From an uncultured Elusimicrobia bacterium (GTDB taxonomy: Bacteria > Elusimicrobiota > Elusimicrobia > Elusimicrobiales > UBA9959): a stretch of 64,000 nucleotides of DNA. The translations under genes and the position numbers were made by a program. The DNA is taken from assembly GCA_903889965.1 (NCBI GenBank), contig CAISZM010000028.1, positions 1 through 64,000 of the forward strand, read 5' to 3'. The notes beneath the pieces are model-generated. The model ran no database searches. It worked only from the letters and a program-made list of their open reading frames with translations, and had not been told where the DNA came from. This document shows, piece by piece, positions 4,685-30,867 of this stretch. Within the stretch, counting starts at the first letter, position 1. Each line of letters starts with the position of its first letter.

Positions 4685-4814
4685 ACGCTTCTTGCGTCAA
4701 TTCCGACATGTCCGGTCCCGCGCCAATTAACCGCACACTGTGTCCTTGAGAATATAAATTAATAGCTATACCCGACGAGGAAATCGTATATTTACTCTTA
4801 TTTTTTGCGTAGGC

Positions 4815-4858
4815 CCTGGCCGTCTGATACGCATAGCGTCTGATACGGCACTGCCAAG
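4815..4858. repeat. Intergenic repeat copy (gccgtctgatacgcatagcgtctgatacggcac...)
   Basis: Near-identical to copies at 30609-30641 and 30747-30790. Confidence 0.7.
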
Positions 4859-4861
4859 GGC

Positions 4862-4890
4862 TTGACAAGTCAAGGTTCGTCTGTTATACT
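4862..4890 (+). promoter_or_regulatory. Sigma70-type promoter
   Basis: TTGACA (4862-4867), 17-bp spacer, TATACT (4885-4890). Confidence 0.75.
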
Positions 4891-23171: not shown

Positions 23172-23273
23172 ACCGGCGGGACGCCTGGTTTGAAGCGGGG
23201 GCGGGTATTTAATAATATGTAGGTATCCCGGCACCCTCCCGCCGCCGTGTTGAATTTGACGAGGTATTTTAAT

Positions 23274-24107
23274 ATGTGGAACTATACCGAAAAAGTGTTC
23301 GAGCATTTCAAGAACCCCAGGAACGTGGGCGAGATAGAGAACCCCGACGGTGTCGGCGAGGTGGGCAGCATAATCTGCGGCGACGCGCTGAAACTGACGC
23401 TGAAAATAGACAGGGCCACGCAGAAGATAGTCGACGCCAAGTTCAAAACCTTCGGCTGCGCCAGCGCCATAGCCTCCTCCTCCGCCCTCACCGAGATGGT
23501 CAAGGGGCTGACCCTCGATGAGGCCTCTAAGATAACGAACCAGAAGATAGCGGACTACCTGGGCGGCCTGCCCGGGGAGAAGATGCACTGCTCCGTGATG
23601 GGCATGGAGGCGCTCGAGGCCGCGATAAAGAATTACCGCGGGGGCAAAGCCGAGAAGGTCATCGTCGGCCTCGGCGAACGCGTGGTATGCAAATGCTTCA
23701 GCGTGACCGAATCCGCCATCCTGAAAGCCATAAAGCTGAACGATCTGCACACCGTCGAAGAGGTCACTAATTTTACCAAGGCCGGCGGCGGCTGCGGGCA
23801 GTGTAAAGGCGAGATAGAAAAAATAATCAAGGATTATTGGGCCGAGGCCGAGCATAAGAGCTTCGCCAGGATGACCGTGGTGGAAAAGATAAAGATGATA
23901 GAGAAGGTCCTGTCCGAAGAGGTGAACCCCAGGCTGAAGGCCGACGGCGGCTGGATAGAGCTTGTGGACATCGAAGGCCAGAAGGTCAAACTTCGCTTCC
24001 TGGGCATGTGCCACGGCTGCCCTTCCTCGGGGGCCACGCTTAAGAACGTGGTGGAAAAAGAGCTCAAGGAGCGCATAGACCCCGCGATAGAGATTGAGGC
24101 TGAATAG
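23274..24107 (+). CDS. nifU: Fe-S cluster assembly scaffold NifU (full-length, three-domain)
   Basis: IscU-like N-domain (ICGD, FGCASAIASSSALTE, HCSVMG), central CKCF...GGGCGQCKGEI, C-terminal NifU domain MCHGCPSSGATLKN. Confidence 0.93.
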   Translation: MWNYTEKVFEHFKNPRNVGEIENPDGVGEVGSIICGDALKLTLKIDRATQKIVDAKFKTFGCASAIASSSALTEMVKGLTLDEASKITNQKIADYLGGLPGEKMHCSVMGMEALEAAIKNYRGGKAEKVIVGLGERVVCKCFSVTESAILKAIKLNDLHTVEEVTNFTKAGGGCGQCKGEIEKIIKDYWAEAEHKSFARMTVVEKIKMIEKVLSEEVNPRLKADGGWIELVDIEGQKVKLRFLGMCHGCPSSGATLKNVVEKELKERIDPAIEIEAE

Positions 24108-24235
24108 GGCCGCCCGGGGCATTATTCCGTCCACCCGGCCCGCGGGGAACCGTTGCGCGGTTCCCCTCAACCGCCGGAGCGGTTGAGCCTCCCTTCCCCA
24201 ACGGGTGTCCGAAACAAAGTCCCGGGCGGCCTTTT
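24108..24235 (+). ncRNA. Candidate branched structured RNA element between nifU and nifS
   Basis: 11-bp closing stem GGCCGCCCGGG/CCCGGGCGGCC (24108-24118/24221-24231), CACCCG/CGGGTG (24132-24137/24202-24207), GGGGAACCG/CGGTTCCCC hairpin, TCAACCGC/GCGGTTGA hairpin, followed by TTTT. Confidence 0.55.
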
Positions 24236-24246
24236 AAGAGGATAAA

Positions 24247-25449
24247 ATGGAAAAGGTTTATTACTTCGATAATAACGCCACCAGCCGCGTGGCCCCTGAA
24301 GTGGCGAAAGAGATGGAGCCGTTCTTCAACGAGCTCTACGGCAATCCTTCCAGCATGCATTTCTTCGGCGGCGGAAACCAGAAATACCTTGACCTGGCCC
24401 GGGGGCGGGTAGCCGGCCTCCTTGGAGCGGAGCCCGGGGAAATTATATTCACCAGCTGCGGCACCGAATCCGATTCCACGGCCCTGTGGTCCGCCCTGCG
24501 CGCCTGGCCGGAAAAGAAGCACATTATCACCACGAAGGTGGAGCACCCGGCCGTGCTGAACGTCGCGAAACTCCTCGAAACCCAGGGCTACCGCGTTACC
24601 TATCTGCCGGTGGACGGCTCCGGGCAGATAAACCTGGAAGATCTGAAGGTGGCGCTTACTCCGGAGACGGCGCTGGTTTCCATCATGTGGGCGAACAACG
24701 AGACCGGCGTGGTATATCCCGTGGAGGAGGCCGCCCGCATAACGCACGCCAAGGGCGCCATGTTCCATACCGACGCCGTGCAGGCCGTGGGGAAAATACC
24801 TATAAATTTGAAAGAGACCAAAATAGACATGCTCTCCCTCTCCGGCCATAAGCTGCACGCGCCGAAGGGCATAGGGGCGCTTTATGTCAGGAAGGGGGCG
24901 CGCTTCTCTCCTTTCCTGATAGGCGGGCACCAGGAGCGCGGGCGCCGCGCCGGCACGGAGAATGTGCCCTACATAGCCGGCCTGGGGAAGGCGGCGGAAC
25001 TTGCCGCGGCAAATATAGAAAAAGAGAATACTGGCGTTAAAGGATTGCGCGACCGGCTGGAGAGCTGTTTGCTTTCGGCCATAAAGAACAGCCGTGTTAA
25101 CGGCGGCGGCGCCCCGCGCCTCCCGAATACCACCAATATTAGTTTTGAGTACATAGAGGGCGAGTCCATACTGCTGATGATGAGCGAGAAAGGCATCTGC
25201 GCCTCATCCGGGTCCGCCTGCACCTCCGGGTCCCTCGAGCCTTCGCACGTTCTCATGTCCATGGCCGTGCCGCAGACCTACGCGCACGGTTCTGTGCGTT
25301 TCTCGCTGAGCGTATATAACACGCTGGAGGAAGTGGACTATATTGTGAGGGAATTGCCTCCCATCATCGAGCGCCTTCGCGCCATCTCGCCTTTCGCGGA
25401 CGGCAGGCCGCTTTTCGGCATGGACGCCTGCGAGCCTCACAAGCACTAA
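24247..25449 (+). CDS. nifS: Cysteine desulfurase (NifS/IscS-like)
   Basis: YFDNNATSRVAPEV, HTDAVQAVGKIPIN, SLSGHKLHAPKGIGALYVR, CASSGSACTSGSLEPSHVL. Confidence 0.94.
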   Translation: MEKVYYFDNNATSRVAPEVAKEMEPFFNELYGNPSSMHFFGGGNQKYLDLARGRVAGLLGAEPGEIIFTSCGTESDSTALWSALRAWPEKKHIITTKVEHPAVLNVAKLLETQGYRVTYLPVDGSGQINLEDLKVALTPETALVSIMWANNETGVVYPVEEAARITHAKGAMFHTDAVQAVGKIPINLKETKIDMLSLSGHKLHAPKGIGALYVRKGARFSPFLIGGHQERGRRAGTENVPYIAGLGKAAELAAANIEKENTGVKGLRDRLESCLLSAIKNSRVNGGGAPRLPNTTNISFEYIEGESILLMMSEKGICASSGSACTSGSLEPSHVLMSMAVPQTYAHGSVRFSLSVYNTLEEVDYIVRELPPIIERLRAISPFADGRPLFGMDACEPHKH

Positions 25450-25772
25450 AAAACATCTCTTTTGTTTTACTCCGAGGAAAAATAGATGCATTTGCGGCGG
25501 GTTCGCTGGGCCTGCCGTCGGGTTGGATCCATCAGGCACGCGGCGGCCACGCCGTGGCCGCGCTCCGCACGCAGAAAGTGGCATGCTGCCACCCGGTCGC
25601 CGGGCTTATGCAACCGGCGGGCGAAAGCTGTGTCCGTGGCAAACCTTTGGAAGCCCAGTCCACCCCGCGAGGGCCTTCTTCACCAACCCGTCGTCACCCG
25701 CTCCAGAGATACTGATAGCGGGGTTACTTTCCGCAATGGGCGCCCAAGGTAATCACCCGTCCTCCCGCTGTT

Positions 25773-25800
25773 TGAAAGACGGGGTTTAGAGTGCTATAAT
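25773..25800 (+). promoter_or_regulatory. Promoter for tRNA
   Basis: TTGAAA - 17 bp - TATAAT upstream of the tRNA. Confidence 0.65.
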
Positions 25801-27517: not shown

Positions 27518-27715
27518 AAACACCCGCTTCCGGGTTTGGCATGTATGCGGGCCGGGCATGGGGTTGCCCATTCCGCAGCGCAGGAACCGTTGCGCATAGC
27601 GCTTGTATACGCTGCGGCACACACAGTTTTCTGTAGGATTACCCGGGCTTTTTCCGGGGACGCGGGGCGGCGGAAGTTGAGCATTTAAAGAAAGTTTGAT
27701 ACGATATGTCCGTAC

Positions 27716-27787
27716 GGCGCGGTGGCCAAGTGGTAAGGCGGCAGTCTGCAAAACTGCTATTCGCGGGTTCGATTCCCGCCCGCGCCT
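27716..27787 (+). tRNA. tRNA-Cys(GCA)
   Basis: GGCGCGGTGGCCAAGTGGTAAGGCGGCAGTCTGCAAAACTGC...GGGTTCGATTCCC...CCGCGCCT. Confidence 0.95.
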
Positions 27788-30608: not shown

Positions 30609-30641
30609 CAGTCTTGGCCGTCTGATACGCATAGCGCCTGA
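30609..30641. repeat. Intergenic repeat, first copy (5' part)
   Basis: cagtcttggccgtctgatacgcatagcgcctga; remainder tacggcaccgtca resumes at 30733. Confidence 0.75.
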
Positions 30642-30730
30642 GTGGAGCGAAGCGACACAATTCAGTGAACAGTGGAGCGAAGCGACACAATTCAGTGAAC
30701 AGTGGAGCGAAGCGACACAAGTCAGTGAAC
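30641..30730. repeat. Three tandem 30-bp direct repeats
   Basis: agtggagcgaagcgacacaattcagtgaac x3 (third copy with t->g: gtcagtgaac). Confidence 0.95.
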
Positions 30731-30746
30731 AGTACGGCACCGTCAC

Positions 30747-30790
30747 AGTCTTGGCCGTCTGATACGCATAGCGCCTGATACGGCACCGTC
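30747..30790. repeat. Intergenic repeat, second, uninterrupted copy
   Basis: cagtcttggccgtctgatacgcatagcgcctgatacggcaccgtc. Confidence 0.8.
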
Positions 30791-30867
30791 ACAGTCTTGA
30801 CAGTTATGGCGGAAAATAGGTTATATGTATCTGTAATTTAGAGCGATATCCTTAAGGAGGAAGTACA

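Follow-up and report, generated by a model that had tools for sequence, protein, structure and literature searches.

The nifU–nifS gap and its palindrome

The window analysed here is a stretch of 64,000 nucleotides from the genome of an uncultured Elusimicrobia bacterium (2.24 Mb in 87 contigs); its named relatives, among them CG1_02_56_21 and UBA9634, are MAGs of Elusimicrobia. On its forward strand nifU (23247–24107, with the stop codon TAG at 24105–24107) is followed by nifS (24247–25449). The two gene names, given in the earlier note on this DNA, proved correct by curated models, with scores above cut-off for NifU_proper (348 bits) and FeS_nifS (611 bits). No NifH was found over the cut-off in the window's own genome. 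Hence, nifU and nifS are here a NIF-type Fe-S assembly pair with no evidence of nitrogen fixation, and most likely serve general Fe-S assembly. The gap between them is 139 nt long, and the element described below begins right behind the nifU stop codon, as had been reported. The likely Shine-Dalgarno sequence of nifS (AGAGGA, 24237–24242, assigned by inspection) lies outside the element, as do the two genes.

The entire element, a palindromic repeat that we call type A, occupies 24108–24231 on the forward strand, where all its parts are also read. Its 5′ distal arm, GGCCGCCCGGGGCATTATTCCGTC (24108–24131), is complementary to its 3′ distal arm, TCCGAAACAAAGTCCCGGGCGGCC (24208–24231). The outermost 11 bp are formed by GGCCGCCCGGG (24108–24118) and its exact reverse complement CCCGGGCGGCC (24221–24231), directly 3′ of which stands TTTT (24232–24235). 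Further in, CACCCG (24132–24137) and CGGGTG (24202–24207) form the inner helix. This is followed by hairpin 1, GGGGAACCG-TTGCG-CGGTTCCCC (24144–24166), the abutting hairpin 2, TCAACCGC-CGGA-GCGGTTGA (24167–24186), and an unpaired stretch, GCCTCCCTTCCCCAA (24187–24201), that is conserved among copies. All the motifs listed in the earlier note, including the arms, CACCCG/CGGGTG and the two abutting hairpins, were found where it had placed them.

When the gap region was folded, as that note had proposed, RNA of 24100–24245 gave −77.7 kcal/mol, compared to −57.7 ± 4.0 kcal/mol for dinucleotide shuffles (z = −5.0; 0 of 200 shuffles as stable), and folding of 24108–24231 as DNA gave z = −4.85. The nested multi-branch fold is therefore real, and more stable than every shuffle. 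No riboswitch had been recognised in it. At the gathering threshold Rfam had no match to the element and only two tRNAs in the window. At permissive thresholds the sub-threshold Rfam matches were chance-like and none was relevant.

Other repeats were also observed in the window. The gap behind nifS (25488–25790) holds repeat-like hairpins, GCGGCCACGCCGTGGCCGC and GCCGGGCTTATGCAACCGGC, that resemble inner hairpins of type-B and type-C palindromes of congeners, with a fold z of only −2.0. At 27548–27625, shortly before the tRNA at 27716, stands part of a related but longer repeat (GGGCCGGGCATGGGGTTGCCC...GCAGGAACCGTTGCGC). A short module, GGCCGTCTGATACGCATAGCGCCTGATACGGCAC, occurs at 4811–4867 and 30609–30802; in the latter place three tandem 30-bp units, AGTGGAGCGAAGCGACACAATTCAGTGAAC, at 30641–30733 stand inside a split copy of the module.

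Copies, placement and the same gap in relatives

Searching the genome of the window at the DNA level revealed one complete second copy of the element along with partial ones. Six aligned copies sharing the branched fold (17 of 42 pairs doubly changed) were used to build a covariance model, R1, which matches the window's copy at 24107–24232 with 126.8 bits. The genome-wide search for copies that the earlier note had called for gave 20 R1 matches in the own genome at E ≤ 1e-3, and about 33 copies in one congener (G013). A further congener, G003, has at least 27 copies. R1 matches were found in 31 of the 32 genomes of the same Elusimicrobiota genus, with per-genome counts of at least 1 to 74, since scoring was limited to about 110 candidates in each genome. 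Counts were high in G022 and G006, whereas G010, G011, and G047 had one match or none. In a phylum-wide search under stricter filters (151 genomes), the matches were confined to this genus and one sister genus. No match to the element was obtained by BLAST in collections of plasmids and phages, and the literature on such repeats in Elusimicrobia contained nothing relevant as judged by titles.

With a home-made codon-usage gene caller, trained on the window and applied to many genomes, 101 of 102 distinct copies were found to be intergenic. Seventy-four lay between co-directional genes (46 antisense and 28 sense to them), while convergent genes flanked 14 copies and divergent genes 5. The median distance was 22.5 nt behind the upstream stop codon versus 46 nt before the next start codon (p = 5e-4), and the copies adjoin unrelated genes. 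Such placement, avoiding promoters and genes, is that of REP- or ERIC-like repeats. Of the 102 copies, 27 bear a 5′ tail of the AGTC type together with a 3′ flank of the CTCC type; the rest, including that of the window, are devoid of them. Homology on both flanks was detected in 21 pairs, so some copies occupy the same place in several species.

The type-A family is modular, for in five G013 copies (L221, L224, L225, L228, and L230) a third hairpin (GTGACTATTCCGCTAACGCGCAATAGTCAC and similar) is inserted behind hairpin 2. Repeats also nest in repeats: the hairpin 1 loop of some copies is an insertion site of other repeat modules, and a module similar to GGCCGTCTGATACGCATAGCGCCTGATACGGCAC sits there in three of them (L171, L172, and L227).

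The nifU–nifS gap itself was compared among relatives. In five congeners (G005, G009, G015, G023, and G024) it is empty, with a length of 9–10 nt. In G012 a type-A copy has the same orientation and place and is followed by a second, different palindrome, while four congeners (G013, G016, G017, and G020) carry type A in the opposite orientation. G003 retains the arms only, as a bare palindrome of about 31 bp. Other congeners have different repeat families in the gap, including a second palindromic family, type B, which itself has matches in 32 of 32 congeners (2–39 each). In the eight members examined of a sister family the gap measures −7 to +2 nt, that is, the genes abut or overlap. These states were scattered over a nifU+nifS tree whose deep nodes are weakly supported. 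Gaps that are empty, or filled by an inverted copy or another repeat, argue that the gene pair can do without the element and that the gap is a repeated landing site.

Taken together, the element is very probably one copy of a non-autonomous, interspersed intergenic palindromic repeat of about 125 bp and of REP/ERIC/MITE-like character, belonging to a genus of Elusimicrobiota. Most likely it is a new repeat of this kind, confined to a few Elusimicrobiota. It has the many interspersed intergenic copies of a MITE. Another mark of a MITE, terminal inverted repeats common to the copies along with a transposase-bearing element, was not found; the arms are inverted repeats, but they differ between copies.

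Paired change in the arms

Alignment of 117 rows, fitted to the structure and including 15 reverse-strand echoes that are left out of our own counts, showed pairing in 94.8% of the cells, and 39 of 42 pairs had double changes. The doubly changed cells numbered 826 versus 213 in shuffles, and the covariation score of 0.458 fell to 0.130 on shuffling and to 0.09 or less on sliding. Double changes across copies were seen at all six inner-helix pairs, and they also preserve pairing in hairpin 2, the sequence of which is variable. The core of hairpin 1, in contrast, is nearly invariant.

The distal arms were examined in 23 copies of G013. Between copies they are 64–66% identical, whereas the rest of the element is 85% identical. 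Each copy's own arms are nevertheless 90% Watson–Crick paired, compared to 64% for arms swapped from one copy to another, and the best partner of an arm was that of its own copy in 19 of the 23. Type A thus has an unusual trait, namely arms that are copy-specific yet self-complementary, around a conserved two-hairpin core.

For a helix maintained as part of the mRNA of the host, G·U should exceed A·C in copies lying sense to host genes. Cells with G·T (37) were rarer than those with A·C (84). The ratio of A·C to G·T was 18:10 in copies sense and 37:19 in copies antisense to host genes; this comparison ignores the relatedness of the copies, which makes its p-values too small, and the point is the same direction in both orientation classes. 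The scarcity of G·T, the lack of any bias towards the host mRNA strand and the pairing of each arm with its own partner make the complementarity look like a property of the DNA. This points to a palindrome that is kept up at the DNA level rather than by a function of its RNA.

Arm complementarity could be maintained through template-switch repair of a hairpin or cruciform. Template switching is a documented source of hairpins with such double changes, and of their upkeep (PMC8794818). Alternatively, the arms may be renewed by way of a hairpin intermediate during mobilisation. Comparison of the arms at orthologous sites gave similar numbers of pairs altered on both sides (73) and on one side (61), which suggests that both partners may also change without leaving the site; alternatively, the site may have received an insertion more than once.

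Possible mobilisation, alternative readings and known systems

The earlier note had offered a mobile palindromic repeat as the second of two readings, and the many scattered intergenic copies support it; mobility is suggested by this scatter, the occurrence in both orientations and the empty sites. We therefore favour spread by mobilisation through a putative enzyme, in which new copies would arise at intergenic sites in either orientation, mostly in gaps between co-directional genes close behind the upstream stop codon. A bolder reading, tentative and rather improbable, is of a mobile palindromic DNA element recognised by its structure and not by its end sequence. Its two-hairpin core would be conserved, and its arms would be renewed in each copy as a pair. 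A putative Elusimicrobiota enzyme would copy one arm from the other when the element is mobilised, or around that time, by template switching or by way of a hairpin. Two observations count against the mobile repeat in general. Hairpin 1 and the unpaired CCTCCCTTCCCCAA are conserved, which implies that their sequence is under some specific constraint or that the spread is recent, and the sites shared across species could reflect retention for a function.

Direct traces of a mobilising enzyme were sought. Among 75 untailed copies, 2 had target-site duplications of at least 5 nt, against a null mean of 0.8; the boundaries of the copies may be off by a few nt. No partner with a transposase turned up in the vicinity of Y1 genes or where contigs end in repeats, which also weighs against mobility. 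It may be noted that contigs C9, C59, and C31 of the window's own genome, G000 (loci L300, L299, and L294), end at identical 141-nt stretches of a related, long type of repeat, which indicates that long-type repeats break the assembly. A transposase-bearing parent was considered at these ends and rejected, as the flanking ORFs of two of the contigs, judged by reading and not by family search, read as ordinary genes.

Type A could be thought of as a REP element spread by a RAYT (TnpA_REP, a Y1 transposase), in the manner of the GTAG-REPs. The palindromes with their many copies and the tail and flank found on some of them are as expected for this, and of 16 genomes of the genus that were searched, 14 encode Y1_Tnp proteins. 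It is nevertheless improbable, since the own genome, with its 20 copies, and G003 have no Y1_Tnp, cis linkage failed (an R1 copy within about 1.5 kb of 0 of 20 Y1 loci in congeners), the Y1 loci inspected bear other short inverted repeats of their own, and the GTAG tag is absent. A RAYT may once have been present and since been lost. A bidirectional intrinsic terminator or insulator, in which a GC stem is followed by TTTT, would fit CCCGGGCGGCC-TTTT at 24221–24235 and the excess of convergent over divergent placements. We regard it as very improbable: T-runs in the 6 nt that follow the element as modelled were found in 0 of 102 copies and A-runs before it in 1 of 102, so that the GC stem with a U run describes the window's copy and not the family. 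Moreover, most copies have co-directional genes on either side, and a terminator there would be polar.

The remaining readings assign the element a role in the nifU–nifS transcript. The first reading of the earlier note was a riboregulator or attenuator that would adjust nifS relative to nifU, and the note had itself named many copies at unrelated loci as evidence to the contrary; such copies are what was found. A specific riboswitch or attenuator upstream of nifS, responding to Fe-S or cysteine status, would accord with the location and with a compact multi-branch fold that has a conserved core. The sense-oriented conservation upstream of the same gene that marks a riboswitch is lacking, however. 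The same element stands beside unrelated genes genome-wide in both orientations, it is absent from five congeners that retain nifU–nifS and from the sister family, it is inverted in four and replaced by a different repeat in others, and Rfam does not match it. Sequence comparison already weighs strongly against this reading, which is hardly credible. A less specific effect is possible, though doubtful: the transcribed branched hairpin might, by analogy, alter the processing or stability of the mRNA between the two cistrons and shift the nifU:nifS ratio, and the host might keep it for that. The preference for co-directional gaps near the upstream stop codon, the very stable RNA fold and the retention at some orthologous sites are in its favour, and there are precedents in ERIC (Yersinia) and NEMIS (Neisseria), which act on the mRNA of their host operons (PMC2229807). 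It is opposed by the congeners and sister family in which the same gap is without the element or holds it inverted, and by the excess of A·C over G·T in sense and antisense copies alike, with no G·U excess on the transcript strand. It is partly compatible with a mobile repeat, of which it could be a secondary effect; an ERIC/REP-like side effect on the nifU–nifS mRNA is plausible by analogy, but would not be specific. For the mobile repeat that we prefer, transcription of the element at nifU–nifS, if it occurs, would be that of a passenger in the operon mRNA, any effect on nifS being secondary.

A false lead is thus removed, in that a strongly covarying fold that resembles RNA and lies between two nif genes is a genome-wide repeat and not a riboswitch; covariation alone would have misled. 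The type-A copies also form a natural data set of more than 100 copies in some 30 species, in which the arms diverge, complementarity stays and there are hardly any G·T intermediates. They may serve as a test bed for hairpins maintained by DNA template switching rather than by selection on RNA.

Among known systems, ERIC/IRU resembles type A in being an imperfect palindrome of about 127 bp with paired 5′ and 3′ ends, intergenic and often intercistronic in both orientations, with no known dedicated transposase. Type A differs in its two-hairpin junction core, its copy-specific yet complementary outer arms and its phylum, the comparison having been one of size and architecture. NEMIS/Correia elements of Neisseria have conserved terminal inverted repeats, whereas the termini are the most variable part of type A, for which no clear target duplication was found. 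They too are palindromic mini-elements with long and short forms that differ by an internal block, and at 105–155 bp they form RNA stem-loops acting on neighbouring transcripts (PMC2229807). REP/REPIN sequences and the GTAG- or CGTC-tagged REPs share with type A the GC-rich extragenic palindrome in many copies, and part of the type-A copies have the tag-like AGTC 5′ tail. These REPs are, however, single stem-loops of 20–40 bp with a terminal tag, in contrast to a branched element of about 125 bp. GTAG REPs are linked to RAYT genes, unlike type A with its AGTC tail and no Y1 linkage; CGTC REPs are likewise without a transposase (PMC3733652). Integron attC sites have core sites (GTTRRRY/RYYYAAC), which by inspection type A does not, and lie in cassette arrays rather than in ordinary intergenic gaps. 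Like type A, however, they preserve structure while the arm sequence is specific to each copy, with strict Watson–Crick pairing of DNA.
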